A DNA stretch of 28,469 nucleotides. Origin: a virus. Position 1 is the first letter of the stretch, and each line of letters starts with the position of its first letter. Below are positions 1,338-28,202 of the stretch, in pieces. The notes under the pieces were generated by a model. That model made no database searches. It was not told the DNA's origin and worked only from the letters and a program-made list of their open reading frames with translations. Location: IMG/VR virus record IMGVR_UViG_3300030117_002517, positions 1 to 28,469 of that record; one strand, written 5' to 3'. The position numbers and the translations under genes are program-made.

Positions 1338-3749
1338 ATGGCAGAGTCTGTTATAAGCAATTATTTTCCATCTCAAGTTGTAAGTGACTTGGAAAAAATA
1401 AGTTATGATTACGGTTTGAAAGTAGCTAAGGCTATTGAGCAAGAGTGGTTTCATAACGATAGAGGTTCTAATAGATATAGAACTAATCATAATGATTTTC
1501 ATAAATTAAGATTGTACGCTAGAGGCGAACAATCAATACAAAAATATAAGGATGAATTATCTATAAACGGTGATTTGTCCTATCTTAATTTAGATTGGAA
1601 GCCAGTGCCTATTATACCTAAGTTTGTAGATATAGTTGTAAATGGTATTGCAGAAAGAACATATGATATAAAGGCTTACTCACAAGATCCTTATGGTGTT
1701 AGTAAAAGAACAGAGTATATGGAGTCTATGTTAAGAGATATGAGATCAAGAGAGTTTAATGACTACGCTCAGGAGAACTTCAACATGAATACTTATGAAA
1801 ATGCTAAAGAACTTTTGCCTGATACAGAAGAAGAATTAAAACTTCACATGCAATTAAATTACAAGCAAGCTGTAGAATTAGCTGAAGAACAAGCTATTAA
1901 CATAATAATGGAAGGTAATAAGTATGAGTTAATTAAAAAACGTTTCTATTATGATCTCACGGTTTTAGGTATTGGAGCTGTAAAAACAGAGTTTAATACT
2001 TCTGAAGGAACAACTATAAAATATGTAGACCCAATAGATTTAGTTTATTCTTATACAGAATCTCCATATTTTGATGATATATACTATGTTGGTGAAGTTA
2101 AAAGTGTTCCAATAAATGAATTAGTAAAACAATTTCCACATTTAACACATGATGAATTACAAGATGTAGTTAAAAACAAAGGTTTTCACCAAACAAATTA
2201 CAATAGAAGTAGTGCTAATTTAAGGCAAGAAGATGGTAATAAAGTTCAAGTTTTATATTTTAATTATAAAACATATATGAATGAAGTTTATAAAGTAAAA
2301 GAAACTGGTACTGGTGCTGAAAAAATATTAGCAAAAGATGATACATTTAATCCACCAGAAAGTTCTGAAAATTTTGGTAAACTACATAGATCAGTAGAAT
2401 GTTTATATGAAGGTGCTATGGTGTTAGGTACTGATAAGCTGCTTAAGTGGGAAATGGCTAAAAATATGATGAGGCCAAAAAGTGATTTTACTAAAGTAAA
2501 AATGAATTACGCTATTGTAGCTCCACGTATGTATAAAGGTAAAATAGAATCACTAGTAAAGCGTATTACTGGTTTTGCTGATATGATACAATTAACTCAT
2601 TTAAAGTTACAGCAAGTATTATCAAGAATGGTTCCTGATGGTGTTTATTTAGACGCTGATGGTTTAGCTGAAATAGATTTAGGTAATGGTACTAATTATA
2701 ATCCGCAAGAAGCTTTAAACATGTTCTTCCAAACAGGTTCGGTAATTGGTAGATCAATGACGGTTGATGGTGATATAAATCCTGGTAAAGTGCCAATACA
2801 AGAAATAACTAGTGGGAGTGGTGGTAATAAAATGCAAGCTTTAATTGGTAATTATAATTACTATTTACAAATGATTAGAGACACAACCGGATTAAATGAA
2901 GCTAGAGATGGTAGTATGCCAGATAAAAACGCCTTAGTTGGAGTACAAAAATTAGCAGCAGCTAATTCTAATACAGCAACAAGACATATATTACAAGGAG
3001 GTTTATATTTAACATCTGAAATGGCACAATGTTTATCACTTAGAATATCAGATATATTAGAATATTCACCAACAGCTGATGCTTTTATACAACAAATAGG
3101 AGCCCATAATGTTGCAACGTTAGAAGAAATGAAAGAGTTACATTTGTATGATTTTGGTATATTTATAGAGTTAATGCCAGATGAAGAAGAAAAGCAAATG
3201 CTTGAGAATAATATACAAATGGCATTACAACAAAAGTTAATAGAATTAACTGATGCTATTGATCTTAGAGAAATTAAAAACGTAAAACTAGCTAATCAGC
3301 TATTAAAAATACGTAGAGAGAAGAAAATAGAAAAAGATCAACAATTACAAGAAAGAAATATGCAGATGCAGTCTCAAACAAATCAACAGGCTGCTCAAGC
3401 AAAATCACAAGCTGAAATAGAGGCTTCACAACAAAAGACACAAAGTGAAATACAATTAGAACAAGCAAAATCAGAGTTAAAGATATTGCAACTTCAACAA
3501 GAAATGGAATTAAAAAAGCAATTAATGGAGCAAGAATTCCAATATAACTTGCAATTACGTGAATTAGACGTAGATGCACAGAAAGGAAGAGAAGATGAAA
3601 GAGAAAATCGTAAAGATCAAAGAACAAGAATACAAGCTACACAACAAAGTGAACTTATAGATCAAAGAAAAAGTGAAAAACCACCTAAAAACTTTGAGTC
3701 TGTAGGTAATGATAGTATTGGAGGTGCTTTGAACTTAAGCGATATGTAA
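1338..3749 (+). CDS. Portal protein
   Basis: Likely portal (803 aa), the dodecameric ring at one capsid vertex through which DNA is packaged and ejected. Support is its position directly after TerL and two genes before the capsid protein, its length (podovirus and crAss-like portals are about 700-800 aa), and a middle region of the portal type (YYDLTVLGIG... VDPIDLVYS, residues about 205-240). From about residue 625 to 780 the protein becomes one long Gln/Lys/Glu-rich, Pro-free stretch that should form an extended helix or coiled coil, reminiscent of the C-terminal barrel of P22-like portals. The last 20 residues contain a short motif (F786-I794) resembled by one in the scaffold-like protein encoded next. 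The start ATG follows an A/T leader with no Shine-Dalgarno site. Assignment rests on synteny and recognisable sequence style, not on a search. Confidence 0.85.
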   Translation: MAESVISNYFPSQVVSDLEKISYDYGLKVAKAIEQEWFHNDRGSNRYRTNHNDFHKLRLYARGEQSIQKYKDELSINGDLSYLNLDWKPVPIIPKFVDIVVNGIAERTYDIKAYSQDPYGVSKRTEYMESMLRDMRSREFNDYAQENFNMNTYENAKELLPDTEEELKLHMQLNYKQAVELAEEQAINIIMEGNKYELIKKRFYYDLTVLGIGAVKTEFNTSEGTTIKYVDPIDLVYSYTESPYFDDIYYVGEVKSVPINELVKQFPHLTHDELQDVVKNKGFHQTNYNRSSANLRQEDGNKVQVLYFNYKTYMNEVYKVKETGTGAEKILAKDDTFNPPESSENFGKLHRSVECLYEGAMVLGTDKLLKWEMAKNMMRPKSDFTKVKMNYAIVAPRMYKGKIESLVKRITGFADMIQLTHLKLQQVLSRMVPDGVYLDADGLAEIDLGNGTNYNPQEALNMFFQTGSVIGRSMTVDGDINPGKVPIQEITSGSGGNKMQALIGNYNYYLQMIRDTTGLNEARDGSMPDKNALVGVQKLAAANSNTATRHILQGGLYLTSEMAQCLSLRISDILEYSPTADAFIQQIGAHNVATLEEMKELHLYDFGIFIELMPDEEEKQMLENNIQMALQQKLIELTDAIDLREIKNVKLANQLLKIRREKKIEKDQQLQERNMQMQSQTNQQAAQAKSQAEIEASQQKTQSEIQLEQAKSELKILQLQQEMELKKQLMEQEFQYNLQLRELDVDAQKGREDERENRKDQRTRIQATQQSELIDQRKSEKPPKNFESVGNDSIGGALNLSDM

Positions 3750-9108: not shown

Positions 9109-12100
9109 ATGCCAGAGTTAAAGAGAAATTTTGCTCAGGGGAAAATGAATAAAGATCTTGATGAAAGATTACTTCCTCCTGGCGAATATAGAGATGCAAA
9201 TAATATTCAAGTATCAACATCAGATGGTTCTGATGTAGGTACTGTACAAACAATGCTTGGTAACACTAGATTTATAGGCTCTACAAAACTACCGGCAGAT
9301 TGTAAATGTGTTGGTGCAATTGCTGATGGAAAAAGTGATAATTTATATTGGTTAGTAAAAGGACCTGGTAAATATAGTACACAAGCATTAAAATACGATT
9401 TTATTCTTGAAGTAAATGTAGAGTATAATAAAGTTAAATATGTTGTCGTAGACAATTACCAAACAGTATTAACAACATCAGCAGCTACAATTAATGGTGC
9501 AACTTTAACATTCTCTAATGCAGCGGGTGTAAGAGCTGGTATGTATGCTGTTTTTAACGATACTGCTGATGATCCTCAAAGGTGGGAGGTATTATCTATA
9601 GACACAAACAATGTAGTTACTTTAGCACCATTAAATGGAGTTGCGATTTCTTTAAATGTAGCTTCTGGTGCAACTATTGTTTTTGAAGCGCCTAGAGTAT
9701 TAAACTTTTCTGGTGATATTATAACAGGAATAAATATAATAGAAGATAATCTTTTCTGGACAGATAATCAATCTGAACCTAAAAAAATAAATATTACAAG
9801 ATGTAAACTTGGTACGGGTAAAGCAACAAACGCGCCTGATACTAATATTTCTGGTGATATACCTACCCCAGCCGCATTACAAAATTCTCCTTTTAATGGG
9901 GCAAATTACAATATACATACTAGATTAGTATCTACACTAGACGATGCTATAGGACCGGAAGTTATAACTAACGCAGCTGGTACTAAAGCTGTGTTTTTAG
10001 AAGAACAACATATTACTGTTATTAGAAAAAATCCTGTAACGCCTTTGTATTTAGAAATGTCAAACACACAGACTGATAGATATAATCAAAATGGTGTTGC
10101 CAACAATATATTAACAACAATATCATCCACTAGATTTGTAGATAGTGATGGAGACCCTCTTGAAACTGGTGCTATAAAAACAAATGTATTTTTTACAACT
10201 GCTGTTGATTTTAGAATAGGAGATATTATAGTTGCAAAGTCACAAGCAAACCAAAGTAGTTATAGTGATTTTTCAGATTACGAAGTAAGAGCTGAAATAA
10301 CAGGCGTTCCTTCTCAACATCAACCTCCAAACACTATAATGCCAGGTGTAACTGGTGATGCTTATGAGCTTACAATATTAAGTGTTGTAGAAACTGCTTT
10401 AAACTCTGACGAGGTTTGGTCTGTAACTTTAGAGCAGAAAAAACCTTTATTTGAATTTAAATTTCCTAGATTTTCTTATAGATATAAATATGTAGATGGT
10501 GAATACTCTTGTTTTGCGCCTTGGTCTGAAGTTGCTTTTATGCCTGGTAATTTTGATTATTTGCCTAAACAAGCTTATAATCTAGGTATGAAAAATAATT
10601 TAAGATCTTTAACTTTAAAAAATTATATAGTTGAAGATTCTTTAAGACCTAGAGATGTTGTTGAAGTTGATATTTTATACAAAGAAAGTAACTCACCTTT
10701 ATGTTATACTGTAAAAACAATAAAACCTTCAGACGGAGATTTAGTATGGCCTAATACAAGTCAAGATCCTTATGAAAGAGGTAGATTAGAAATAGAAAGT
10801 GAAATTATACATGCTGTATTACCGTCTAACCAATTATTAAGACCTTGGGATAATGTACCAAGACACGCATTATCGCAAGAGGTAACAGGTAATAGGCTTG
10901 TTTACGGTAATTATAAACAAAATTACAACATAATAAGTGATGGTCAATTAATAAGACCTAATCTTGATGTTTCTTTAGTTAGCACAAATGTTAGTAATTT
11001 AATGGGTACAAAATCTGTAAAGACAATGCGTAATTATCAATTAGGTATTGTTTATGGTGATGAATATGGTAGAGAAACACCAGTATTAACTGATCCAGTT
11101 ACAGGTTCTATAAAAGTTGACGTTGAAGAAGCAACCAAAAGCAATAAACTTAAAGTTAAAATAAATTCTATAGCTCCTGATTGGGCTAAAACATGGAAGT
11201 TTTATGTAAAAGAAACTTCTAATGAATATTATAATATGGCTATGGATAGATGGTATGATGCTAAAGATGATTGTATTTGGCTTTCCTTTCCATCAGCAGA
11301 AAGAAATAAAATAGATGAAGAAACATATTTAATACTCAAGAAACAACATGATACTGATGTCGCTATAGAGAAAGAGGCAAGATATAAGGCAATAGCAATA
11401 TCAAATGATGCTCCAAAATATATTAAAAAGAAAAGAGTTTCTTTAGGTACAATTAACAATGCTACCCATAATAGTGTTGTAGATAATGTAATTGGTGATT
11501 CATCTAGTGGTTTCCCTTTTGTTAACACTAACTTTTTTACTGTAGTAGAATCAAAGGCAAATGATACTTGGGGTAATGATTTTTGGGCATATGATAATTT
11601 AGAAATTAAATTTAAATCTTCAACTGGAGATCAATCAAGATATTATGAAGTTATAAAAGCGGCGCCTAGTGGTAGTAATGAGTATAATATAACTATAAAA
11701 GAAAAGTTTGGCGATGATATGTTGTTTGCAACAACTGACGATCCTCAAACTTGGGCTAATAGATTAGGTGCTAGCGATACTAAAGTTCTTCAAGTAGAAA
11801 TGTTTTATGTAGAATACGAAGATAAACCAGAGTTTGACGGTAGATTTTTTGTAAAAATAAATAAAGATTTAGTCTTAAAGAAAAATTTATTAAAAGTGTC
11901 AGATCCAGATAACTACGTAATAACTGCATCTACAAAAATTCATTACATAAATACTTTTGAGGGTAGTACTGGTTCTGATGGTATTAATGGTGTGTTTTTA
12001 GGTGGTGATGGTACTGGCGGTACTCTTTCGGGCATACCTACACTTCCAATAGGTCAAAATTCACTCGGTGTAAGAATTTACTCGGACGGATCAACATCAC

Positions 12101-14646
12101 ACCATTGGGATCCCACATCATACACAGGTGGTAGTTTAGTTGATTTTTACGAAACTAATAATTATAATGCCGATTCACCTGGTAGGAAACAGGCTAGAAG
12201 ATTTTGGGAGGCCTTTTCAGCATTAAATAGAAATCATGATAAAGGTACTTGGTTTATAGATCAAGCTTATGTTAGAAGCGATTTTAAGGGTACTCCGTCT
12301 CGATACGCAGGATTTAAAGGTTGTGGAGACAATATACCTTATGATAATGGTATAGATTCTGGTTTTGGTGATAGTTCTGATGGTGGAGATATTTTTAATC
12401 ATCCTGAAGCTGGTCCATTAAATATATGGTTAGGCAAAGTGCAAGGTGAAGCTGATTTAACAAATCAAAGTGGTAGTGGTTATCATGCTGGTAGTAGAGG
12501 TATATACGCTGGTAATTACGCTATGGACATATCATTCTCGGGTATATGGCCTTATGGCGCTGATATAGGCAAAGAAGGAGTTATAAATAGAATACAAGAT
12601 GCTGGTATGTCAGAGTATGATCAAGATGTAGCTTTTGCAACAGCTCTTTTTCAAGAAGGCGCTAAGTTTAGATTTAAAAGTGATCCTGACTCAATAGTGT
12701 ATACTGTTTTATATGTTAGAGAATTATACGGTTTAAGAAACTATGATCCAAAAGAAGGTGATAAAGGTAATTGTAATGATGATGGTACTATTGATTCTCC
12801 AAACCATGCATATAATAAAAGACAAAGATGGACTATTGTTGTAGATAAAAAGTTTGGTAGTGGTCCTTCTAAATATTGGCCGTTGGATATAGCACACGAC
12901 GGTACTCAAGGACAAAATATTGAAGTTTTAGAACCATATAGTGAGCAAGGCGGTTATTCTAGTGAAAATCCAGCTATATGGGAAACAGAACCAAAAGAAG
13001 ATGTTGGACTTGATATATATTACGAAGCAACTCAAGCATACCCAATGGATATAGATTTTAAAACTAATGAACAATTTATACCTGTAGGTTGTGTTGTAAA
13101 ACACTTTGTTACTAACGAATGGGTTAATATTTACTACGATGGTAGTTCTGCAGATACCACTATTAAAGTACGAACTTACTCTGCAAGTGATCAAAAAGTA
13201 ACCTTAGATGGTGCTTCAGTTGCAATAGCAGTTAACACAAAACTTAGATTTGAACATCCTGATGGTGGTGCAGTTCATGCCTACACACAAACAGCTGTTT
13301 CAGCTGGAGATACTTCTATAATACTACATGGAAATAGCGATAACACTGTTCAAGCATACAGACCTCATAATCAAGATATAATTTTACCTTATTTTAATTG
13401 TTATTCTTTTGGTAATGGAGTTGAATCTGATAGAATAAGAGATGACTATAATCAAGTTAGAATTACTAATGGTGTAAAAGCATCTACGGTTTTAGCAGAA
13501 CAATATAAAGAAGAACACAGACCTAATGGTTTAATATTCTCAGGTATTTACAATAGCAATAGTGGTATAAATAGATTAAATCAATTTATACAAGCTGAGA
13601 AAATAACTAAAGATTTAAATACGAGACATGGTAGTATACAAAAACTTTATGCTAGAGATACCGATTTAATAACATTATGTGAGGATAAAGTTTTAAGAAT
13701 ATCAGCTAATAAAGATGCTTTATATAACGCTGATGGAAAACCACAACTTATATCATCTAATGTTGTTCTAGGACAAGCAGTTCCTTATGTTGGCGACTAT
13801 GGTATATCTAAAAACCCTGAATCTTTTGCTGCTGATAATTATAGATGTTATTTTACAGATAGACAAAGAGGGGCTGTGCTTAGATTATCAAGAGATGGTA
13901 TAACACCAATATCAGAACATGGTATGAGAACTTGGTTTAGAGATAATTTTGGTAAAGTTTATGTTAATCAAGCTATTGGTAGTTTTGATAAAGATAAAAA
14001 TACTTATAATTTAACTTTAAAAACAATAACTGGAAGAGGAGGTGATGATGAGGAAAATGTTAATTATACTCTTGCTTTTAAAGAATCTGTTAGAGGTTGG
14101 CAAAGTTTCCATAGTTATATACCAGAGTATGGTGAAAGTTGCAATAATAAATATTTTACCTTTAAAGATGGTTTCCCTTGGCAACATCATGTTAACACTA
14201 CAGCAAATAATTATTATGGAACACAGTATTATTCAGATATAACAGCAATATTTAACGACCAACCAGGAATGGTAAAAAGTTTTAATACTATTAGCTATGA
14301 AGGTACACAAACAAAAGTTGCTCAAAATTTAAGTGATGGTAACTATCATAATTTAACAGCTGTTGATGGTTGGTATCTTGATAGTTTTACTACAGACTTG
14401 CAAACGGGTACAGTTTCTGAATTCATAAATAAAGAAGGTAAATGGTTTAATTATTTAAAAGGAGAGACTACAACTTTAAGTAATTTAGATGGATTAGAGT
14501 TTTCTGTACAAGGAATAGGTAATCCTTCCGCAGTTACTCATGATGGTAGTAGTGATGGTTCTGGAGGTTCTTACAAATTATATGTTAATGACAGTTCTAC
14601 TGGTACTGATGGTACTGGTTGGGATGACGGTAATACTTATACATAA
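9109..14646 (+). CDS. Giant nozzle/muzzle-like tail protein (1845 aa)
   Basis: Very large virion protein that probably forms the distal short-tail tube. The N-terminus (NFAQGKMNKDLDERLLPPGE, then YRDANNIQVSTSDGSDVGTV) is a signature I associate with the tail stabilization or muzzle proteins of Bacteroidota podoviruses. A second conserved-looking block is FYVKETSNEYYNMAMDRWYD followed by a WLSFPSAERNKID segment, roughly residues 697-740. A third lies at about 1475-1637 (KLYARDTDLI, YGISKNPESFA, YFTDRQRGAVLRLSRDGITP) and reads like a beta-propeller. Between them are several small beta modules, such as the one at about 125-200 with GVRAGMYAVF. Residues 950-1150 are Gly/Asp/Ser-rich, and the last 40 residues are a Gly/Ser/Asp/Thr tail. 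No transmembrane segment is visible. T7 gp12 is the functional analogue I infer; direct homology cannot be shown here. Confidence 0.7.
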   Translation: MPELKRNFAQGKMNKDLDERLLPPGEYRDANNIQVSTSDGSDVGTVQTMLGNTRFIGSTKLPADCKCVGAIADGKSDNLYWLVKGPGKYSTQALKYDFILEVNVEYNKVKYVVVDNYQTVLTTSAATINGATLTFSNAAGVRAGMYAVFNDTADDPQRWEVLSIDTNNVVTLAPLNGVAISLNVASGATIVFEAPRVLNFSGDIITGINIIEDNLFWTDNQSEPKKINITRCKLGTGKATNAPDTNISGDIPTPAALQNSPFNGANYNIHTRLVSTLDDAIGPEVITNAAGTKAVFLEEQHITVIRKNPVTPLYLEMSNTQTDRYNQNGVANNILTTISSTRFVDSDGDPLETGAIKTNVFFTTAVDFRIGDIIVAKSQANQSSYSDFSDYEVRAEITGVPSQHQPPNTIMPGVTGDAYELTILSVVETALNSDEVWSVTLEQKKPLFEFKFPRFSYRYKYVDGEYSCFAPWSEVAFMPGNFDYLPKQAYNLGMKNNLRSLTLKNYIVEDSLRPRDVVEVDILYKESNSPLCYTVKTIKPSDGDLVWPNTSQDPYERGRLEIESEIIHAVLPSNQLLRPWDNVPRHALSQEVTGNRLVYGNYKQNYNIISDGQLIRPNLDVSLVSTNVSNLMGTKSVKTMRNYQLGIVYGDEYGRETPVLTDPVTGSIKVDVEEATKSNKLKVKINSIAPDWAKTWKFYVKETSNEYYNMAMDRWYDAKDDCIWLSFPSAERNKIDEETYLILKKQHDTDVAIEKEARYKAIAISNDAPKYIKKKRVSLGTINNATHNSVVDNVIGDSSSGFPFVNTNFFTVVESKANDTWGNDFWAYDNLEIKFKSSTGDQSRYYEVIKAAPSGSNEYNITIKEKFGDDMLFATTDDPQTWANRLGASDTKVLQVEMFYVEYEDKPEFDGRFFVKINKDLVLKKNLLKVSDPDNYVITASTKIHYINTFEGSTGSDGINGVFLGGDGTGGTLSGIPTLPIGQNSLGVRIYSDGSTSHHWDPTSYTGGSLVDFYETNNYNADSPGRKQARRFWEAFSALNRNHDKGTWFIDQAYVRSDFKGTPSRYAGFKGCGDNIPYDNGIDSGFGDSSDGGDIFNHPEAGPLNIWLGKVQGEADLTNQSGSGYHAGSRGIYAGNYAMDISFSGIWPYGADIGKEGVINRIQDAGMSEYDQDVAFATALFQEGAKFRFKSDPDSIVYTVLYVRELYGLRNYDPKEGDKGNCNDDGTIDSPNHAYNKRQRWTIVVDKKFGSGPSKYWPLDIAHDGTQGQNIEVLEPYSEQGGYSSENPAIWETEPKEDVGLDIYYEATQAYPMDIDFKTNEQFIPVGCVVKHFVTNEWVNIYYDGSSADTTIKVRTYSASDQKVTLDGASVAIAVNTKLRFEHPDGGAVHAYTQTAVSAGDTSIILHGNSDNTVQAYRPHNQDIILPYFNCYSFGNGVESDRIRDDYNQVRITNGVKASTVLAEQYKEEHRPNGLIFSGIYNSNSGINRLNQFIQAEKITKDLNTRHGSIQKLYARDTDLITLCEDKVLRISANKDALYNADGKPQLISSNVVLGQAVPYVGDYGISKNPESFAADNYRCYFTDRQRGAVLRLSRDGITPISEHGMRTWFRDNFGKVYVNQAIGSFDKDKNTYNLTLKTITGRGGDDEENVNYTLAFKESVRGWQSFHSYIPEYGESCNNKYFTFKDGFPWQHHVNTTANNYYGTQYYSDITAIFNDQPGMVKSFNTISYEGTQTKVAQNLSDGNYHNLTAVDGWYLDSFTTDLQTGTVSEFINKEGKWFNYLKGETTTLSNLDGLEFSVQGIGNPSAVTHDGSSDGSGGSYKLYVNDSSTGTDGTGWDDGNTYT

Positions 14647-14650
14647 AAAT

Positions 14651-17445: not shown

Positions 17446-18096
17446 ATGGCATTTATAATAGTAGGTGCAGCAATTGCGGTTGGGGCTGGAGCAACACAAG
17501 TTATAATGGCCAATCAGGGTAGAAAAGGTAGAATAGCAGAACAAAAAGCTGCAGCTGCTGAAATGGAAAAAAATAAAAGAGCTTACGAGGCTATTGACAC
17601 TAGTAATACTTATGCTGATTTAGAAAATAAGTTTGAAGATATAACTATAAATCAACAACAAGCACAGTTTGAGGCTCAACAAAACCAACAACAGCAAGCT
17701 AATTTAATGAATCAAATGAATATTGCCGCTGGTGGTTCTGGTATTGCTTCTTTAGCACAAGCTATGGCAAATCAAGGTCAATTAGCATCTCAACAAGCTG
17801 CGGCTTCAATAGGTATGCAAGAAGCTCAAAATCAAAAACTAGTTGCTCAAGAAGCAAGTAGATTACAACAATTAGAAGCAGCTGGAGAACAAACAGCCCA
17901 ACAAAGAGAAGCTGATAAACGTGCAACATTATTAGGTATGTCACAACAAAGAAAAGGAGCTGCAGATCAAGCAAGGGAAGTAGCAAAACAACAGGCAATG
18001 GCTGGTGTTGGAACAATGGCTGGTGGTATAACGTCTGGTTTACAAGCTGGTCAAGCAAATATAGATAGTGGTGGTACGTTTTGGAGAGAAGGTTAA
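17446..18096 (+). CDS. Internal virion / ejection-like protein 1 (216 aa)
   Basis: Probable internal protein ejected with DNA, analogous in size and composition to T7 gp14 or P22 gp7. Residues 3-21 (FIIVGAAIAVGAGATQVIM) are a hydrophobic Ala/Gly/Val segment able to cross a membrane. Then comes a long Gln/Ala/Glu/Lys-rich helical or coiled-coil region (about 22-183) rich in QQ and QA pairs. A second Gly/Ala-rich apolar segment, AGVGTMAGGITSGLQAG, lies at 186-202. This layout suits a protein that forms part of a transenvelope channel. It is the first of three adjacent genes with internal-virion character. It starts 3 bases after the cupin gene stop. It could alternatively be a tape-measure-like fragment, but the length is too short for that. 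Confidence 0.68.
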   Translation: MAFIIVGAAIAVGAGATQVIMANQGRKGRIAEQKAAAAEMEKNKRAYEAIDTSNTYADLENKFEDITINQQQAQFEAQQNQQQQANLMNQMNIAAGGSGIASLAQAMANQGQLASQQAAASIGMQEAQNQKLVAQEASRLQQLEAAGEQTAQQREADKRATLLGMSQQRKGAADQAREVAKQQAMAGVGTMAGGITSGLQAGQANIDSGGTFWREG

Positions 18097-18116: not shown

Positions 18117-19778
18117 ATGGCAGCAGATGCAAATTTAATAAAAAGTGCGGCAACAGCGTATGGAGCTGGGACAGCGGCTAAATTAGCTGGTGGTGATCCA
18201 CTAGGTGATTTAGGAAAAGATCTTATACGTAGAGTAGATATTGGTACAGCTGAAGTAAAAAAGAGAACAGCTGAGGCGAAGAAAAGAGCTCAAATCCTTG
18301 ATGATGAGTTTTTTAAAAATCAAGAAAAAGCATTGCAACAAGGTGGTGCGTTAGGAGAGGCTGAATATGAGTTCACTAGAAGAAAAGTTGACAGATTGCA
18401 AGAAGAGTATCAAAAATGCGGTTTAAAAGATGATGCTTGTAAAAAGAAAGTTATGATGGCTTTATCTATGGAAAGTCAAGGTTTAACTTCTATGAAAGAC
18501 ACAAGAAAATTAAACGCAGAGGCATTAGGTAATATGAGGGGTGATATTAGCAAAGAACAATTACAAGTTATGGGTATTTACGCAAATTCTCAATCTGGCA
18601 AATATACTATAACAGAAGGTGAAGACGGAGAGTTAAGATATACTTTTGATTTAGGCGATGATAAAGAAGCTTCTTATACACAAGGCGAGTTAGATAAAAT
18701 GTTTGAAGCTCAAAAAGATAATGTTGGTGCTGAACAAACTAAACAAAGAGCTTTATCAAATATTAATAGGGGTAAAACTGGAGAAAGTTTTGACGAGGCT
18801 CAAGAAGGAGCTCTTTATGATAATCTTACAAAAACAGATAATTCTCTTAGGTCTTTTCTTAATGACAATTGGGGTGTTGGTACTTTTGCTGGCAGTATAG
18901 ATAATAAAATAAAAGCTGAATTAGAGGTTTTAAAAAGCGACCCGAGAATTCAAAGTTTAGACATTCCTACTGGTGCTGGAGAAACAAATTGGTATGATAA
19001 TATATCAAAAGAAGATGAGGCATTAATAAAACAAAGATTAATGAATCCACAAACAGAAGAGGAGATGGCTATTAGTAGGCAAGTTGGAAGAGAATATTTT
19101 ATTGACGCCCAAAGACAACAGTACAACATGGGTGTAAGAGAAGCTGAAAAAGCAATGCTTGATTCTCGTCAAAAGGAAATAAATAAAATCGCTTTTGAAA
19201 ATTTAAAACAAACTCACAAGTTGGAACTGCAGAACGCAAAAAGCCAAGACGCTATAGATAAAATCAATGCTGAAGCAGAAGTTGATGCAGGTAAAATCAC
19301 AATTAAAGAATCTGAACAAGTTGATAAAGCTGCTCCAAAAATTGATATTATAAATATAAACTACAAAGAAGACGATCCTAGTTCTGGAGAACAATATTTA
19401 ACTAATGTTTCTACAGATCAAATGAAAGCTATTGATAAAAATCTTAAAGATCCTAATGTGAGAGGTGTCCCAGGTAATTTTGGTTACTACTATAAAGATG
19501 CTAAAGGTAATTGGAGAAAATTTGATAATAAACAAGATTTTGCTAAAAAGCAAAAAATAAAAATAAAATCAGGTGAGAATTTAGACGATGCAATTGAAAG
19601 GTATAGACAAGAAGGAAAGTATAAACCTGAAGTTCAAGGTCTTAGAGGTGGTAAAGCAATAAGTTTAGAAACTATTAGAGCTGATGAACAATTAGAATCT
19701 GCAAAAGATCAAGTAATAAAAACTACTACAAGATCACGTACTGAAAATATAACTCCATTTGATCCTAATGACATCTAG
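18117..19778 (+). CDS. Internal virion / ejection-like protein 2 (553 aa)
   Basis: A charged, mostly helical soluble protein with no recognised enzyme motif. Residues 1-30 are Ala/Gly-rich (SAATAYGAGTAAKLAGG). Residues 40-110 are Lys/Arg/Glu helices that include a C101-C108 pair. A short beta part, YTITEGEDGELRYTFDL, is near 163-179, and long Gln/Glu/Lys helices span about 190-400. The C-terminal third contains GNFGYYYKDAKGNWRKF near 456-472 and ends TPFDPNDI. Place and composition match the middle member of three-protein ejection sets, such as T7 gp15 or P22 gp20. The start is the ATG after a leader that reads TAATAAATAAAAATAT, again without Shine-Dalgarno. Function is inferred from position between the membrane-segment protein and the giant polyvalent protein. 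Confidence 0.62.
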   Translation: MAADANLIKSAATAYGAGTAAKLAGGDPLGDLGKDLIRRVDIGTAEVKKRTAEAKKRAQILDDEFFKNQEKALQQGGALGEAEYEFTRRKVDRLQEEYQKCGLKDDACKKKVMMALSMESQGLTSMKDTRKLNAEALGNMRGDISKEQLQVMGIYANSQSGKYTITEGEDGELRYTFDLGDDKEASYTQGELDKMFEAQKDNVGAEQTKQRALSNINRGKTGESFDEAQEGALYDNLTKTDNSLRSFLNDNWGVGTFAGSIDNKIKAELEVLKSDPRIQSLDIPTGAGETNWYDNISKEDEALIKQRLMNPQTEEEMAISRQVGREYFIDAQRQQYNMGVREAEKAMLDSRQKEINKIAFENLKQTHKLELQNAKSQDAIDKINAEAEVDAGKITIKESEQVDKAAPKIDIININYKEDDPSSGEQYLTNVSTDQMKAIDKNLKDPNVRGVPGNFGYYYKDAKGNWRKFDNKQDFAKKQKIKIKSGENLDDAIERYRQEGKYKPEVQGLRGGKAISLETIRADEQLESAKDQVIKTTTRSRTENITPFDPNDI

Positions 19779-19784
19779 ATTAAT

Positions 19785-22700
19785 ATGAATAAAGAGTATT
19801 TACAAAACGTACATAGCATGTTAGGCGTAACGCACGACTTTGATGTTTGGACAAGTAAAATTAAAACAAACGATAATTACTTGTCTAAGCTGCATAGTGA
19901 GCTTGGCGTGACTCATGATTTTGATACTTGGAAGCAAAAAGTTATTGGATCTACTACACCATCTGTACCTAGTGATTATAAACCTAAAGAAGACTTTAGT
20001 GATTGGGAAGTTGTAACTAATGTAGATGGTTTAAGTGTTAGTATATTTAGAAATCCAGAGGGTGATCTTGTAAAAGATGAAGATGTGCCAAGGGAGTTGC
20101 GAGATTTGCATAAAAAGTGGCAAACAAAAGGTCAAGATGATCCAATAAGTTTTGGGCAGTTTTTAGTAGATACAAAAGGCACTGAGGAAGGTAAAGATAT
20201 TATAAAAACAATAGATTCTTATAAATTAGTAGGTACAGATTTAGAAAATAAAAGAAAAGAAAACAAATCAGAAGTAGAAAGGTATAAAGAGCTTGTTAAA
20301 AAAAGAGCTGATCTTAATCTTAGAGTTCAAAAAGCTGGTATTGTTGAAGAAGAAGCTCCTATTGTAAACTTTGCTGGCTTAAGAATGATAGATCCAAGTG
20401 CTGGGGAAGTTACTGGAAATATAATTAGTCAAAGTGATAAAAAATCAAAATCAGAAAAAGCAAGTGGTGCAGAAATAGAACGTCAAAATAAAACAGAAGA
20501 TAGAGAAAGTTTAATAGCTCAAATTGAAAACTCTAGAGTTAAAAGAATATATAACGAAGTTTTATCTACAAAAAGCGATAATGTTATTACTGGTAGTGAT
20601 GAATTTTGGGATTTAGTTACTGAAAAGATGACTGATGAAGATGCTCAAGCCCATTTTAAAAAACTTATTGATGAGGCTATAGAAAAAGACCAAGGTATAT
20701 TTCAACTTTTTATATCAAAATCTCAACAAGAACAAATTAGTAAAACTGAAGAGCAACTTCCAAAAATACAAAAAGCATTAAAAAATAATATAAAATCTAC
20801 ACAATATAGTTATAATAATATAATAAGATTAGAAAAAGAATTAACTGATTTTCAAAATGATTATAATGAATTTGTAGCACCTAAAGCAACTCAATATAAA
20901 AAAGAATTTGAAGATATAGCTTTAAAAATAGAAAATTTAGAAAAAGATAAAGAAGCTTTAGGTGATGTTAATGAGTATTCAGATATAAGTTTAATTAACC
21001 AATGGAATGCTATAAATGATAAACAAAATGTTTTAATAACTCAACAACAAGGTATTCAAGTTAAACAAGAAAAATTACTTGCTGACAATGCTGACATGAT
21101 TTCTTCTTATAAAAAAGCAAATGAAGATATAAAAACTTGGGTTAAAGATTATAAAGATAGAATTGTTATTAGTGATGAACTTATACAAAACGAAAAAGAT
21201 TTATTAATATATCATAATGCTATAAAAAGAAACAACCACAATGTAGTTGCTGGATCAGCTTGGTTATTAAATGGTGCTATAAGTTTAACTAGTGGTGTAG
21301 AAGGTATGGTAAATGCCGTTAGAGAGTTACCGGAAGATTTGCTTTTTGAATATTATGATAATGATGTTGAAAAAATGCCACCTATAGTAAAACAACTAAA
21401 GGGGTATGATATGTTTACAGATGCCATGAGAATGGCTGGTAAGGAAAAGGTAAACAATTTTATGAATAACATTAATAATAGTGTTGAAGAGGCCGTGGAT
21501 TTTGAAGAAATTGATGATGTTGCTGATTTTGGTATGTTTGCGCTTCATGGCTTAGCAAATTTTGCCCCGCAAGTAGCTTTAATGGCAACTACCGGTGGCG
21601 CTTCAATATATGTTATGGGTGCTAGTGCTTTTGGTAACAAATATGATGAAATGGAAAGGTCAAATGCTTTTGGAGGAACAGAGTATACTTTAGGCGAAAA
21701 GTGGTTAGCTTCTACTATAACTGGTGGTTCTGAAGTTTTATCAGAAAAAATAACATATGGTATATTTAAAGGTTATAATAATGCTGTAAAAAGCACAATA
21801 AGAGATAAAGGTTTCAAAGGTCTTATGCAAAACTTTAGTATAGGCGGAACTTTAAAGGCTGGAACAAATACGGTTACAGAGGGTGGGTCTGAGGTTTTAG
21901 CACAAATAGGTGGTAATTTTGCAGATATAATAATTGGTAAAGACGTTGATATAATGGGTGGTGTCAACGGTGCTTTTGTCACAGGTTTAATTATGGAAAG
22001 AGCAATGGCAATGCCTGTGTTGTATAACAAAATATCACCTGTGTTTATGGGTAAAGATTATACAGAGCAAATGGCCAGTCTTAACATAAAGCAAAACGAC
22101 ATTGGTAAAAAAATAATAAACGAGCTTACCTCTGAATCTGCTAGAGAAAAACTTACAACGCAGTGGCTTAAAATACAGGAGAAGAAAGAAACGTTGATGG
22201 CTAAGAATATTGAAAACATCAACATGATGAAGGGTGAAGAGAAAAATAGACTTGTAAATATAGAAAACAATTTATTTAGAATAAGAAATGAAATAAGATC
22301 TATAGAGCAAGACGGTACAATAAAACAATCAGATAAAGACGCATTAATAGAAGATCTTAATAGTGAACAACAAGAGCTAAGTACTGAAAAAAATAAAATA
22401 ATACAAAAATACGAAAGCGACGAAACAAGAGAGGCTAGATATAAAAGATTTGAAGAACAGACTGCTAAAATAAAAGCTAATATAGAAAGATCTAACAAGC
22501 GTAGAAAAAGCCCCTATATATCTGAAAGATTCCAATCAGATAATAAGTATACAGAATTTGAAACAACACAAGAAGGTTTAGATTATTTTAATAATAAAAA
22601 AATGGAGCAAGACGCTCAGTTAGAAGCTGAGATAAGAGCTATGAGGGAAGTTTTAAATAGCGACGTTGCTTCTGAGCGTGATAAAAGAATCGCCGCTCAA

Positions 22701-25700
22701 AACATTAAGTTTCTCCAACAACAAAGAGCAAATACAACTCAAGAAGCTAAATCTGACGCTAAGTCTTATGGTTTTATTATACAAAATGCAGATGGTAGTT
22801 TTGAAGTTGTTGTCAACAAAGAAAACGCACTAGCTAAAGATGGTAATATTAATGTTGCTGCTCATGAATTTCTACATGCTGTTCTTTACAAATCACTTCA
22901 AGCAAATACTAAATTACAATCAAAAATTGGAAATGCTGTAGTTGATTATGTAGAGAAAAATAAAGGTGGTCTTAATCAAAGCTTTATAAATAAAATGACA
23001 CCTTATGCTTACGCTGACAATGCTGGTGAAGAAATTATTACTGTAATGTCAGAATCTATAATGGATGGATCTTTACAGTTTAATGATGGGTTTTTTACTA
23101 AAATAGGAGATCTTATAAGACAAAACTTACAAAGACTTGGTTGGAAAAAAATTAAATTTAATACTGGTAGAGATGTATACAACTTTATAAAAGATTACAA
23201 TGCTTCTATAGAAAAAAACTACAACAGTGAAGCTATAGACCGTTTGATGGATTTTGGAGCAGAAGGTTCTTTAGTTCAATTAGACAAAAAAGTTGATAAT
23301 GCACCTAAGCAAAATATTCAAAAATCAACTCTTGATGGTTTTCAAAATGAAATAATAATTGAGGAGTTAGGATTAAAAGATGAAACTGCTGCTATTGTAA
23401 AAAGAAATGAAGAAATAGAAAAGAAAATATTAGAAGAAGGCTTAAAAGATTCTGAAGGTAATATAATGGCATCTATATCTCTTGCTAACGCTTTGGTTAG
23501 AAATAATATGCCTAGAGCTTTTGCTTTAGCTAGAAAAGCAGCTAACAAAGGTAAAGATCTAACACTAGAAGATGGTTTACGTATGGACGACGTAGCAGAG
23601 TGGTTTAGTCAATTTAATGAAAAGTTAGTAAAGTTATCTAGAACTTATAGGGCTAGGAAAAACGGTAAAGAAGTTCCGTTTGGTGCTTATATGAATGCTA
23701 TTTTACCTAAAAAATATTCTGGTATATTAGAGAGTATGAAAGGTAAAATTGAAACAGCTAGAATAGAAGAAGAAACTGTAGCTAAAAAAGTTGCTAAAAA
23801 AATAGCACCTAAAATAGATGATGGTAGAGAAGAGTTAGAAGGTACTGTAATAGCTTTGGAGCAAATGGGTCATGGTGATATTATGCCAAAACTTCAAAAT
23901 ATATATAACGAAAATAAAAATCAAGTAAAAAAACTAAGCACTTATAAAGATGTTAAAAATGCTATTTATAGGGCTAAAAAAGAAGGGCCTTTTTATCAAG
24001 CTTTAGTAGAAGTTGCTGAGATATTCACAAATCAAAACTTTACAGCAGAAGAACTTGCCAAGCGCATACTTAACAAGCAAGACTTAACTAAAGAAATGCG
24101 TAAAGCAATCCAAGATAAAATACTTAAACATTCTCCTGAAATGATTACGATGGTACCAGACGGTACTACTGTAGGTGGTGATGCTACCGGCATTGCAAAC
24201 ACTAAACTAGGCGTATGGTATACTAAACAAGGTAGATCAAAATTTACAGATACAGGCACTGGTAAAGGTTTAGCGGTACAACAGAAACAAGGTTTAAACA
24301 ATGAGACTTTTAGACAGCCTTTTGGTATAGCTATAAAAGGTCAAAGAGTTACTGACAAAAGTGTAGATGGAGCTTTAAGGGAGTGGGTTATGCAAGTAGC
24401 TACTTTAGCTATGAACCAAGCATCCAGACAGGCAGATCCAAAGAATATTCCTTTATTAAAAATCAAAGAAGGTAAAAGTCGCGTGCAGTTCAGTACAAAA
24501 CAAAGGGCTAAAAAACTTGAAGAGCAAGCTAGTTATAAAACAAACAAACTATTAGCACCAAAAGAAACTGTAACAATAGAAAACGAAGATAAAACTGGTA
24601 AAATAGAAGTTAAAATTATAACAAGAAGAGATTTAGAACAATACCAAGATGAGAAAAATGAAATAACTTGGGAAGAGTTTTATATGAACCAAATACTAGA
24701 TTTTCTTGACGAATTTCCTCAATATTATGAGGTTATGGCAACTGGTTTAACTGGTGGTATAAAAAAAGCTGCGTTTTTTAATATACCTTATTTTAGAGAT
24801 AAAATTGAAAAATATGCTAAAAAAAGTGGTAGAGAAAATATTGTAGAAAAAATAGATAATACAAAGCAGATAAAACCTTCAAGACTTCTTTACCATAAAA
24901 ACAGCATGTTTAAAGGTCTAAAAAATATAAACCTTTCAAAAGATGAAGGTAAAATAGAGTTTTTAATACAGTTTTTTAAAGATATTGCTAAACATGGTAA
25001 GGGGGAAGAAATTTTTCAAGAGTTATTAACTCACCTTGGTTTTGACCAAAGTAACTTTATGAGACACGCGGGTACATTACTTGCTTTTCCTGTTAACGCT
25101 AAAGGTAAAGAAGTAACTAATGAAATAGGTGTAGAAGAGCATGATCCGCAGATGGAAATGGCTAGAATTTTATTTGCTGCAGCGCGTGATGGTAATATAG
25201 AAGATGCTATTAAGCTTTTGAGGTTTAGTTATTCACAAAGCTCTTTAAGAAAGCAAGATGATCCTGGTGGTGATCTTAGACAGTCTAGAGGTAAAGACTT
25301 TTTTGAAAAAGTAGTACCTAGAGTTTTAAATAATGAGCTAGACTTTTTACCTGATGGATTTGGTGCTATATATAGATTTATGAAAGCAGGTGTAAACCCT
25401 AATGCTTATAAATTAGTAAAAGAAAAACAAACTATAGCAGAATACTTTGGTGTTGATAACTTAAGCGTTAAACAAGCGCAACAAGCTATAATTGATGTTT
25501 TTGAAGGCAAGCAAGATATAAATGTTTTGCGTATGCAGTCAGAGATTAAGTATAGTAGAGATATAGATAGTAATCATATGTTTAGTAGGGCTGTAAACAA
25601 GTCTAGAGTGGTTAATGACGCCAAAGGTATTACCGTATTAGACTTTGATGATACGTTAGCTACAACTAAATCTTTAGTTAAATTTACTAGACCAGATGGA

Positions 25701-28202
25701 ACCACTGGAACTTTAAACGCTGAAGAATACGCTAGTACATATGAAGATTTATTAGACCAAGGTTTTACATTTGACTTTTCAGATTTTAATAAAGTTGTAA
25801 AAGGTAAGATAGCACCGTTATTTCAAAAAGCATTAAAACTACAAGGTAAGTTTGGTCCTGAAAACATGTTTGTGTTAACAGCTAGACCACCACAAGCTGC
25901 TAAAGCTATATTTGATTTCTTAAAAGCTAATGGTTTAAATATACCAATGAAAAATATTACTGGTTTAGCTAATTCTACAGCTGAAGCAAAAGCATTGTGG
26001 GTAGCTGATAAAGTTGGTGAAGGCTTTAATGATTTTTATTTTGCTGATGATGCGTTACAAAATGTACAAGCTGTTAAAAATATGCTAGATCAGTTTGATG
26101 TTAAGTCGAAAATACAGCAAGCTAAAACCCAGTTTAGTAAACCTGAAAATTTAGATAAGTCTTTTAATGATATACTAGAAAACATAACTGGTATTGAATC
26201 TAAAAAAAGATTTTCAGCTATTAAAGCTAGAAAACGTGGGGAGAAGAAAGGTAGATTTAGATTTTTTATACCACCGTCGCACGAAGACTTTGTAGGATTA
26301 CTATATAACTTCATAGGTAAAGGTAAAGAGGGTAATGCTCATAGAGATTTCTTTGAACAAGCTTTAATTAGACCATTAAATAGAGCTTATAGAGAATTAA
26401 ATACAGCTAAACAGTCTATAGCTAATGATTACAAATCTTTAAATAAACAATTTGAAGATATTAAAAAGAAATTAACTAAAAAAACCCCAGATGGTGATTT
26501 TTCTTATCAAGATGCTATAAGAATTTACTTATGGGACAAACATGGTTATAAAATACCTGGTTTAAGCAAAACTGATCAACAAGGTTTGGTTGATTTAGTT
26601 AAATCTGATAGCAAATTACAAGCGTATGCAGATGCAATAAACACTATATCAAAACGTGATGATTATGTTAGTCCTGCAGAAAGTTGGGAAGCTGGAGATA
26701 TAAGAACAGATTTAGATGATGCGACTGGTAGAATTGGAAGAGCAGAATTTTTTGCTGAATTTTTTGAAAATGCTGATATAATATTTTCACAAGAAAATTT
26801 AAACAAAATAGAGGCTGTATATGGAGCTAATATGGTTAGTGCTCTTAAAGATATATTGTATAGAACTAAAACCGGTAGAAATAGACCTAGTGGTCAAAAC
26901 AAATTAGTTAATCAGTTTTTGAACTATTTAAATGGATCTGTAGCTTCAACTATGTTCTTTAACATACGTTCCGCCGTGCTACAACAAATGTCTATGGTTA
27001 ATTTTATTAACTATTCTGATAATAATATACTTTCTGCCGCTAAAGCTTTTGCTAATCAAAAACAATATTGGACTGATTGGGCAACTATATTCAATTCTAA
27101 TTTTATGAAGCAAAGACGTGGTGGTATTAAGACAGATGTTAATGGAGCTGAGTTAGCGGCAACAGTTAAAGATGCTAAAAACCCAATAAATGCTGCAATT
27201 AAAAAATTATTAGAATTAGGATTTTTACCAACACAAATTGGGGATAATATAGCTATAGCTACTGGAGGTTCTACGTTTTATAGAAATAGAATTAATACAT
27301 ACTTAAAAGAAGGTATGACTCAAAAAGAAGCTGAATCAAAAGCATGGACTGATTTTCAAGTATTAGCAGAAGCTACGCAACAATCGGCAAGACCAGATAT
27401 GGTTTCGCAACAGCAGGCATCTCCACTTGGTAAAGTTATACTTGCTTTCCAAAACGTAACTTCTCAATTTAATAGACTAGGTAAGAAGGCATTTTTAGAT
27501 ATTAAAAATAGAAGAATAACACCTGGTAATCCAACTCAATTACAAAGTGATATATCTAATTTATCTAGAATAGCTTATTACTTCGCAATACAAAACTTAA
27601 TATTCTACACCTTACAATCAGCGTTATTTATGGCTATGTTTGATGATAACGAAGAAGATGAAAAATGGTTAAAGAAAAAAGAAAGAATGGTCAATGGTAG
27701 TATTGATTCTGTTTTAAGGGGTACTGGTGTTTGGGGAGCAGCCGTTGCTACTTTAAAAAATATGGCTATTAAATGGCACGAGCAAAGAGATAAAGGTTGG
27801 AATAAAGATGAGAGTGCAGTATTAATGGAAATGCTAAACCTTTCACCTCCACTTGGTATTAAAGCAAGAAAAATGGTTAATGCTGAAAAAACTCTTAATT
27901 ATAATAAAAAGACTATAGACGAGATGAGTGCTTTTGATATTGACAATCCAATATGGTCAGCTGTAACAAGTTATACAGAGGCAACAACTAACGTTCCTCT
28001 TAATAGACTGTATAATAAGACAATAAACGTAAGAGAATCTTTAGACAATCAACACAATTCTTTACAAAGAGTTTTAATGTTTAGTGGTTGGAGTAAGTGG
28101 AATCTTGGAATCGAAGACATTGAAAGATCTAAAGGTAAACAAAAATTTACTAAAAGAAAAAGTACAAGGAAAAAAACAGGATCAAAATTTAAAGCAAAAT
28201 AA
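19785..28202 (+). CDS. Giant polyvalent ejection-like protein (2805 aa)
   Basis: A multi-domain chain taking up 30% of the window. In order: a duplicated motif at residues 5-26 and 32-53 sharing LGVTHDFD; long coiled-coil regions (about 230-500 and 780-960) around apolar Gly/Ala-rich segments (588-626 and 720-750) that could meet a membrane. Next is a zincin-like motif HEFLH at 1027-1031 with E1082/E1083 as the candidate third ligand; a Gly-rich block at 1458-1515 (VPDGTTVGGDATGIANTKLG); and an EHDP block at H1786. A HAD-type phosphatase follows, with D1953/D1955 in DFDDTLA, T2032 in VLTARP, K2069, and D2088-D2089 in FADDA. Last is a C-terminal helical region (about 2380-2560, FFNIRSAVLQQMSMVNFINY) resembling the LPD38 polyvalent domain. 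The C-terminus is very basic. The gene lies 6 bases after the second ejection gene, so co-injection is likely. Enzyme activities are predicted from motifs only. Confidence 0.8.
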   Translation: MNKEYLQNVHSMLGVTHDFDVWTSKIKTNDNYLSKLHSELGVTHDFDTWKQKVIGSTTPSVPSDYKPKEDFSDWEVVTNVDGLSVSIFRNPEGDLVKDEDVPRELRDLHKKWQTKGQDDPISFGQFLVDTKGTEEGKDIIKTIDSYKLVGTDLENKRKENKSEVERYKELVKKRADLNLRVQKAGIVEEEAPIVNFAGLRMIDPSAGEVTGNIISQSDKKSKSEKASGAEIERQNKTEDRESLIAQIENSRVKRIYNEVLSTKSDNVITGSDEFWDLVTEKMTDEDAQAHFKKLIDEAIEKDQGIFQLFISKSQQEQISKTEEQLPKIQKALKNNIKSTQYSYNNIIRLEKELTDFQNDYNEFVAPKATQYKKEFEDIALKIENLEKDKEALGDVNEYSDISLINQWNAINDKQNVLITQQQGIQVKQEKLLADNADMISSYKKANEDIKTWVKDYKDRIVISDELIQNEKDLLIYHNAIKRNNHNVVAGSAWLLNGAISLTSGVEGMVNAVRELPEDLLFEYYDNDVEKMPPIVKQLKGYDMFTDAMRMAGKEKVNNFMNNINNSVEEAVDFEEIDDVADFGMFALHGLANFAPQVALMATTGGASIYVMGASAFGNKYDEMERSNAFGGTEYTLGEKWLASTITGGSEVLSEKITYGIFKGYNNAVKSTIRDKGFKGLMQNFSIGGTLKAGTNTVTEGGSEVLAQIGGNFADIIIGKDVDIMGGVNGAFVTGLIMERAMAMPVLYNKISPVFMGKDYTEQMASLNIKQNDIGKKIINELTSESAREKLTTQWLKIQEKKETLMAKNIENINMMKGEEKNRLVNIENNLFRIRNEIRSIEQDGTIKQSDKDALIEDLNSEQQELSTEKNKIIQKYESDETREARYKRFEEQTAKIKANIERSNKRRKSPYISERFQSDNKYTEFETTQEGLDYFNNKKMEQDAQLEAEIRAMREVLNSDVASERDKRIAAQNIKFLQQQRANTTQEAKSDAKSYGFIIQNADGSFEVVVNKENALAKDGNINVAAHEFLHAVLYKSLQANTKLQSKIGNAVVDYVEKNKGGLNQSFINKMTPYAYADNAGEEIITVMSESIMDGSLQFNDGFFTKIGDLIRQNLQRLGWKKIKFNTGRDVYNFIKDYNASIEKNYNSEAIDRLMDFGAEGSLVQLDKKVDNAPKQNIQKSTLDGFQNEIIIEELGLKDETAAIVKRNEEIEKKILEEGLKDSEGNIMASISLANALVRNNMPRAFALARKAANKGKDLTLEDGLRMDDVAEWFSQFNEKLVKLSRTYRARKNGKEVPFGAYMNAILPKKYSGILESMKGKIETARIEEETVAKKVAKKIAPKIDDGREELEGTVIALEQMGHGDIMPKLQNIYNENKNQVKKLSTYKDVKNAIYRAKKEGPFYQALVEVAEIFTNQNFTAEELAKRILNKQDLTKEMRKAIQDKILKHSPEMITMVPDGTTVGGDATGIANTKLGVWYTKQGRSKFTDTGTGKGLAVQQKQGLNNETFRQPFGIAIKGQRVTDKSVDGALREWVMQVATLAMNQASRQADPKNIPLLKIKEGKSRVQFSTKQRAKKLEEQASYKTNKLLAPKETVTIENEDKTGKIEVKIITRRDLEQYQDEKNEITWEEFYMNQILDFLDEFPQYYEVMATGLTGGIKKAAFFNIPYFRDKIEKYAKKSGRENIVEKIDNTKQIKPSRLLYHKNSMFKGLKNINLSKDEGKIEFLIQFFKDIAKHGKGEEIFQELLTHLGFDQSNFMRHAGTLLAFPVNAKGKEVTNEIGVEEHDPQMEMARILFAAARDGNIEDAIKLLRFSYSQSSLRKQDDPGGDLRQSRGKDFFEKVVPRVLNNELDFLPDGFGAIYRFMKAGVNPNAYKLVKEKQTIAEYFGVDNLSVKQAQQAIIDVFEGKQDINVLRMQSEIKYSRDIDSNHMFSRAVNKSRVVNDAKGITVLDFDDTLATTKSLVKFTRPDGTTGTLNAEEYASTYEDLLDQGFTFDFSDFNKVVKGKIAPLFQKALKLQGKFGPENMFVLTARPPQAAKAIFDFLKANGLNIPMKNITGLANSTAEAKALWVADKVGEGFNDFYFADDALQNVQAVKNMLDQFDVKSKIQQAKTQFSKPENLDKSFNDILENITGIESKKRFSAIKARKRGEKKGRFRFFIPPSHEDFVGLLYNFIGKGKEGNAHRDFFEQALIRPLNRAYRELNTAKQSIANDYKSLNKQFEDIKKKLTKKTPDGDFSYQDAIRIYLWDKHGYKIPGLSKTDQQGLVDLVKSDSKLQAYADAINTISKRDDYVSPAESWEAGDIRTDLDDATGRIGRAEFFAEFFENADIIFSQENLNKIEAVYGANMVSALKDILYRTKTGRNRPSGQNKLVNQFLNYLNGSVASTMFFNIRSAVLQQMSMVNFINYSDNNILSAAKAFANQKQYWTDWATIFNSNFMKQRRGGIKTDVNGAELAATVKDAKNPINAAIKKLLELGFLPTQIGDNIAIATGGSTFYRNRINTYLKEGMTQKEAESKAWTDFQVLAEATQQSARPDMVSQQQASPLGKVILAFQNVTSQFNRLGKKAFLDIKNRRITPGNPTQLQSDISNLSRIAYYFAIQNLIFYTLQSALFMAMFDDNEEDEKWLKKKERMVNGSIDSVLRGTGVWGAAVATLKNMAIKWHEQRDKGWNKDESAVLMEMLNLSPPLGIKARKMVNAEKTLNYNKKTIDEMSAFDIDNPIWSAVTSYTEATTNVPLNRLYNKTINVRESLDNQHNSLQRVLMFSGWSKWNLGIEDIERSKGKQKFTKRKSTRKKTGSKFKAK
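19797..19943 (+). repeat. Tandem 27-residue repeat at the N-terminus of the giant protein
   Basis: Two copies begin at Y5 and Y32. Both contain a tyrosine-led helix, the identical LGVTHDFD core, a Trp two residues later and a Lys-rich close. Positions between copies differ at synonymous and nonsynonymous sites, so the duplication is old and kept at protein level. Such a paired motif could be an anchoring site to portal, neck or core proteins. Confidence 0.85.

Follow-up and report, generated by a model that had tools for sequence, protein, structure and literature searches.

A giant, probably ejected protein with zincin-like metallopeptidase and HAD phosphatase motifs in a crassvirus-related podovirus

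Introduction

Phage polyvalent proteins, described by Iyer et al. (2017; PMC5512222), combine at least two biochemically unrelated enzymatic domains in a single chain. A true LPD38 polyvalent protein is gp68 of Bacteroides phage BF1-TP2, which contains InPase, ART-PolyVal, PBECR5 and LPD38 modules. Giant proteins also stand at the end of cargo gene sets: in crAss001, the muzzle gene is followed by two smaller cargo genes and a giant (gp44–gp47), and gp45–gp47 have been detected in virions (PMC10172136). Such proteins bear on how phages load giant proteins into their capsids and choose what is injected first.

Here we describe a giant protein encoded in a stretch of viral DNA of 28,469 nucleotides (IMG/VR record IMGVR_UViG_3300030117_002517, positions 1 to 28,469; hereafter the window) and compare it with these systems. 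An earlier interpretation, made from the DNA alone and referred to below as the sequence-only reading, had viewed it as a protein injected into the host. The features of the window are listed in Table 1; L numbers are our labels for the loci of relatives and of comparison phages.

Table 1. Features of the window, in order of position
Feature	Coordinates	Strand	Evidence
Portal protein	1338..3749	+	phrog_6547, 3e-149; relatives in Flavobacterium, Cellulophaga and Maribacter phages
Muzzle-type tail protein (crAss_MUZ_C)	9109..14646	+	Pfam PF25729, 7.6e-11; crAss001 gp44, 2.4e-4
216-aa protein, first ejection/cargo protein (candidate)	17446..18096	+	homologue upstream of the giant in 66/67 relatives; Gundel_72, 2.3e-5
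553-aa protein, positional equivalent of a second ejection/cargo protein	18117..19778	+	synteny; about 500 aa in relatives
Giant protein, whole ORF	19785..28202	+	2805 aa; 73 relatives in IMG/VR; ORF mapping
Duplicated ~28-aa motif, putative transferable N-terminal tag (type A), residues 1–56	19785..19952	+	recurs at the N-termini of other giants
Apolar module, residues 571–755	21495..22049	+	E699 and E703 fully conserved in 31 members; profile matches
Zincin-like metallopeptidase region, residues 967–1152	22683..23240	+	HEFLH 1027–1031, E1083, N1011
Semi-conserved middle block with Gly-rich stretch, residues 1280–1600	23622..24584	+	21 family members
HAD phosphatase domain, residues 1935–2106, motifs I–IV complete	25587..26102	+	motif conservation; VIA-align; phrog_415
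Conserved C-terminal helical core (LPD38-like region of the sequence-only reading), residues 2107–2780	26103..28124	+	49–83% identity across the family; weak similarities

Genome context and host

Upstream of the giant lie genes for a terminase, the portal, a capsid-type protein (SU10_MCP, a weak match), virion proteins and a muzzle protein whose C-terminal domain is that of crassvirus muzzles. Named relatives of the portal are found in Flavobacterium elemo phages, Cellulophaga phages, Maribacter phage Panino and Tenacibaculum Gundel_1, and the unclassified Manatee Spring podovirus encodes a further one. Thus, the portal relatives and the muzzle domain identify the virus as a crassvirus-related podovirus whose host most likely belongs to the Bacteroidota, and its hosts are probably marine flavobacteria-type bacteria. 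The eight matches obtained in genome_contigs were discarded as host evidence: all of them lie in contigs of MAGs whose labels are mixed (Maricaulis, Aliivibrio, Woesearchaeota, Ilumatobacteraceae, Flavobacteriaceae and Bacteroidetes), and we take these for viral contigs that had been binned with cellular DNA. At 1845 aa, the muzzle ORF far exceeds crAss001 gp44 (1371 aa) in length, and it shares about 107 bases with the ORF that follows (14540–16570).

The order of a ~216-aa gene, a ~500-aa gene and the giant is kept in the relatives, with the ~500-aa ORF usually intervening. Cellulophaga phage phi18:3 has the same gene order, and its gp120, gp121 and gp123 were annotated from experimental MS/MS; the muzzle-cargo1-cargo2-giant order of crAss001 gp44–gp47 is also the same. 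This synteny agrees with the earlier view that the giant closes a likely set of ejection genes. The 553-aa protein has no detectable homologue, even in those relatives that have a gene at the same position. In two relatives (L008, 5737–8280; L055, 6080–8611) the 216-aa and ~500-aa cargo genes are apparently fused into one ORF of ~845 aa.

The giant protein and its family

The giant ORF begins with ATG 6 bases past the upstream gene's stop codon and stays open for 2805 codons without an internal stop, so that it encodes one chain, as originally read; the next start codon directly follows its stop. Searches of Pfam and PHROGs with this single protein gave nothing above threshold, and names for its modules therefore needed comparative evidence. 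Ribosomal_L17, DUF5763 and GvpO, which came up as weak Pfam/NCBIfam names, were treated as chance or uninformative.

One scan of IMG/VR yielded 73 relatives of the giant, and about 70 viral-contig relatives are of comparable size, the complete chains ranging from 2189 to 3372 aa by ORF mapping. The C-terminal ~860 residues are about 44 to 83% identical across the family; the N-terminal and middle parts are far more variable, with homology that appears and vanishes blockwise and central modules that are swapped between relatives. Exchange of parts in a multi-domain chain is expected to leave a mosaic of this kind. About seventy uncultured viruses encode relatives that share the plan of the giant, and their front ends are exchangeable. 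The module order, which the sequence-only reading took to be undescribed, has only partial matches among 50,697 records of isolated phages; it is common to this large uncultured family, however, and is therefore not unique to the virus analysed here. Chance can be excluded for the zincin and HAD motifs discussed below because they are conserved where their surroundings have diverged beyond the reach of BLAST. In L055 the giant gene consists of two ORFs, split just before the zincin motif (11440–11620), probably by a sequencing or natural frameshift.

N-terminal tag and apolar module

The duplicated motif noticed earlier at the N-terminus is real, its two copies (YLQNVHSMLGVTHDFDVW.../YLSKLHSELGVTHDFDTW...) both lying in residues 1–56. 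A similar doubled motif opens the chain in about a dozen relatives; other relatives begin with one of at least four alternative short N-terminal modules. The profile of the doubled type matches the N-termini of the Manatee Spring podovirus giant (3.5e-5) and of BF1-TP2 gp68 (0.004), as well as those of phi18:3 gp122 and BKO1-TP3 gp55, and the repeat is common to otherwise different giants of other Bacteroidota phages (e.g. the N-termini in L080, L076, L082 and L169). Its consensus gave a single match in 2.3 Gb of phage DNA, with an E-value (0.3) that is not significant alone; the location of this match, 7 residues inside the start of the 5553-aa DarB-like protein of BKO1-TP3, is telling. In phi18:3, the frame of gp122 (L082, 17310–17640) is lost at an A-rich stretch and the alternative frame leads into gp123, so that the tag probably belongs also to this giant, which was annotated from MS/MS. 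Sequencing error and programmed slippage are alternative explanations of the frame change near the run of A.

The apolar segments seen earlier form a module of ~188 residues, from which iterated profiles retrieved 31 family members. In blind searches, the apolar profile reached the last giant gene of cultured phages of Pachyviridae, Pervagoviridae and Elemovirus, with matches to Gundel_74 (2.7e-33), elemo (7.4e-27), phi38:1 gp101 (6.8e-24) and phi18:3 gp123 (8.4e-23), and it also reached BF1-TP2 gp68 (2.2e-21). The match to phi18:3 gp123, annotated from MS/MS, is indirect evidence; even so, no other finding speaks as strongly for the giant as a virion component.

The metallopeptidase region and the middle of the chain

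The HExxH motif is present in all 70 family sequences whose alignment covers the region, with H1027, E1028 and H1031 conserved in 100% of them, and was found in every relative whose ORF spans the site. Downstream of HEFLH, E1083 is conserved in 98% of the same sequences, and N1011 on the preceding strand is invariant in 48 sequences. The arrangement typical of zincins, HExxH and a downstream Glu as third ligand after a preceding strand, can thus be recognized, the metallopeptidase claimed in the sequence-only reading is borne out by these residues, and we consider a zincin in the giant very probable. About ten relatives have zincins too divergent for the family HMM; three divergent zincin subfamilies in the same slot were linked to the family by hhalign with 96–97% probability. 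In blind searches, the zincin profile found the giant of the Flavobacterium elemo phage (elemoA, 3.2e-8) and, more weakly, LPD38-type polyvalent proteins (3e-5 to 1e-3; 3.1e-5 for L101).

A search of PDB sequences with the zincin profile found no chain, and no zincin was among the listed PDB matches of the zincin-region model, which is of low confidence (mean pLDDT 64.7). The model of residues 905–1600 was poor and matched only generic helical bundles in PDB and BFVD. An HEAFH motif at residue 2157 of crAss001 gp47 (L170, 26120–33145) is missed by the family zincin profile. The middle block that follows the zincin region of the giant was found in 21 family members and in no protein outside the family. 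Only L033 and L038 have an extra domain of ~420 residues (HRxEYEKTIAKxRPDLV...) between the HAD domain and the C-terminal core.

The HAD domain and kinases nested in it in three relatives

All four HAD motifs, DxDx(T/V), the S/T of motif II, the Lys of motif III and the acidic pair of motif IV, can be identified in the giant (D1953xD1955xT1957, T2032, K2069 and D2088-D2089) and are invariant in 48 of the 48 C-terminal sequences; their spacing is constant within two residues, except for four relatives with inserts. The AlphaFold2 model (mean pLDDT 64.7, local pLDDT about 57–79) has a HAD Rossmann fold in model residues 39–194, nearly all of its listed PDB matches being HAD proteins. The top ones by VIA-align were Nir2 LNS2 (Z 9.1, rmsd 2.3), Pnkp1 (Z 9.0) and T4 PNKP (Z 8.5); matches within 1 Z of each other count as ties, which makes PNKP one of several top HAD matches. 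Further, phrog_415 (polynucleotide kinase) matches the HAD domains of 17 of 19 members and, in the 2805-aa giant, nearly the whole domain. A search of PDB sequences with the HAD profile found no phosphatase, and none of the isolated phages carries the HAD of the giant at E ≤ 1e-6. With motifs and fold match in agreement, the HAD phosphatase proposed earlier holds good, and we regard its presence as extremely probable. The divergent relatives L065 and L066 have no HAD motif; thus, the domain is not essential to the class.

In three relatives (L010, L033 and L061), a zeta/PNK-like P-loop kinase of ~200 residues is nested in the HAD domain at the same position between motifs I and II, starting 34 residues past motif I. 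The nested kinase of L033 matches Zeta_toxin (8.8e-13) and AAA_33 (3.1e-12), and PezT (5e-4) was the match in PDB. A different insert of ~136 residues is found in the same interval in L023. A kinase inside a phosphatase suggests end-healing chemistry; an alternative is a zeta-like UNAG kinase. That the HAD acts on a PNKP-like substrate is a tentative idea, which we hold with some doubt.

The C-terminal core and the LPD38 family

The C-terminal core and the HAD are the best conserved parts of the giant, and the core is weakly similar to Gundel_74. Of the three modules named in the sequence-only reading, zincin and HAD are upheld by motif conservation, whereas the LPD38-like region, placed here, is not: Pfam PF18857 (LPD38; curated score 27 bits) gave no match at E ≤ 10 in the record of the giant itself or in those of 12 relatives and was not reached at E ≤ 0.1 in 35 relatives. 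A direct LPD38 family search in 19 records gave a single match, to BF1-TP2. Profiles of LPD38, built from BF1-TP2, MetMV, BcepIL02, a Vibrio phage and a Ruegeria phage (5 sequences) and then with 80 further loci (85), matched the core with P 0.004–0.07 at two collinear sites, of which one is near the FFNA/LAFQN stretch; among column- and block-shuffled decoys, the block-shuffled ones reached 32.4 vs 35.9 observed. Independent hhalign comparisons gave a probability of at most 8%. A larger hhalign score, obtained with Gundel_74 on the LPD38 side, was set aside as circular because Gundel_74 already matches the core. Searching BFVD by Foldseek with the low-confidence model of the core gave the Gundel_1 structural protein and several LPD- or ART-PolyVal-labelled proteins (E 1e-7 to 4e-4) in long alignments with low TM, and a PDB sequence search with the core gave nothing credible.

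The C-terminal region might nevertheless be a true, very divergent LPD38 module, in which case the three-module description would be right; this would be compatible with the reading we prefer. Its position in the chain is that of LPD38 in BF1-TP2 gp68, and the two weak collinear matches and the Foldseek matches to LPD-labelled phage proteins (e.g. A0A6J7WSF1, E 4e-4) point the same way. However, PF18857 was never reached in the family members tested, the hhalign and decoy values put the profile similarity at the edge of noise, and the model is of low confidence. With profile scores that are only marginal, we did not adopt the LPD38 label; true membership appears rather unlikely, and distant kinship to LPD38, as opposed to membership, is possible.

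Discussion

Motif conservation, together with homology and synteny to recorded virion proteins and with the modules found also in the undoubted polyvalent protein BF1-TP2 gp68, supports the proposal of the sequence-only reading that this is a large injected protein of polyvalent type with a zincin and a HAD phosphatase, two biochemically unrelated enzymatic domains in one chain in the sense of Iyer et al. (2017). We therefore consider it probable that the giant is an ejected virion cargo protein of this type, and we infer its presence in this virion, its ejection, its role at the envelope, its catalytic activities and its substrates.

Some of the evidence would also fit a protein of structural or scaffold type, located in the inner core or channel. 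In this case the zincin would be a maturation protease acting in the particle, a role that has been proposed in N4-type virion RNAP proteins, and the HAD would be a relic or a structural part. Annotations of positional homologues say only that they are structural proteins, the helical core and the HAD have changed least, and prepackaging processing has been suggested as one MPTase role (Iyer et al., PMC5512222). We nonetheless think a structural role unlikely, since invariant HAD catalytic residues and a kinase inserted in three relatives fit a working enzyme, and the swapping of central modules between relatives is unlike a structural core. A diverged form of the crassvirus gp47-type, RNA-polymerase-associated cargo protein is far less probable still: the giant is in the position of gp47, behind two smaller cargo genes and in the crAss001 gp44–gp47 order, and gp47 likewise has an HExxH motif, but the C-core, tag and zincin profiles have no significant similarity to gp47, and the acidic motif of the giant is part of a complete HAD motif set.

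As an ejected polyvalent-type protein, the giant would most likely share the capsid with the two smaller products of the genes just before it and leave through the muzzle-closed tail, either together with the DNA or in advance of it. The apolar module may help it to pass through the cell envelope or to line it. Once in the cytoplasm, the zincin would process the chain or cut a host protein, and the HAD would remove phosphates. Their most plausible source would be nucleic-acid ends, as it is for PNKP. The variants with a kinase nested in the HAD predict that repair of nucleic-acid ends is delivered along with the genome. If this is right, the polyvalent repertoire would extend to a phosphatase that the founding survey does not name in its main text.

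The tag may have a role in loading or ejection order. More speculatively, and with considerable doubt, the short N-terminal modules could be interchangeable address tags that load unrelated giants of Bacteroidota podoviruses or order their ejection, placed ahead of a conserved scaffold (apolar module, zincin slot and C-terminal core) with swapped effector enzymes, including the kinases nested in HAD. About seventy natural variants now display a fixed plan with swapped parts, and a short N-terminal repeat is common to otherwise differing giants; a loading signal could therefore be tested directly by moving 60 residues.

Comparison with known systems

The HAD fold of the giant is that of T4 PNKP and bacterial Pnkp1, with Z scores of 8.5–9.0 and a phrog_415 match over the whole domain, and some relatives add a P-loop kinase. 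Unlike in T4 PNKP and Pnkp1, the kinase of these relatives lies within the HAD and most closely resembles zeta toxin and PezT, and the 2805-aa giant has none.

Like the polyvalent proteins (PMC5512222), the giant is a single chain with unrelated enzymes, a zincin and apolar and C-terminal helical parts. It differs from those surveyed in its HAD phosphatase: the word 'phosphatase' is absent from the main text of the survey, and HAD does not occur as a domain name in those of its passages that were examined. The comparison of architectures called for in the sequence-only reading did reveal modules shared with BF1-TP2 gp68, namely the apolar module (2.2e-21) and the N-terminal tag (0.004). In contrast to gp68, the giant has no InPase, ART, PBECR5 or LPD38 by Pfam, in which it matches no LPD, ART or PBECR family.

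With crAss001 gp45–gp47 it has in common the order after the muzzle gene and the giant size; sequence similarity, by which homology would be recognized, was not detectable. The last giants of Pachyviridae, Pervagoviridae and Elemovirus (phi18:3 gp123, phi38:1 gp101, Gundel_1 gp74 and elemo gp90) include two, phi18:3 gp123 and phi38:1 gp101, that unlike the giant lack HExxH, and among them only Gundel_1 has a C-terminal core that can be detected, weakly. All four resemble the giant in gene position, in the preceding genes of ~200 and ~500 aa and in the apolar module (1e-22 to 1e-33), and the elemo giant also has the zincin.
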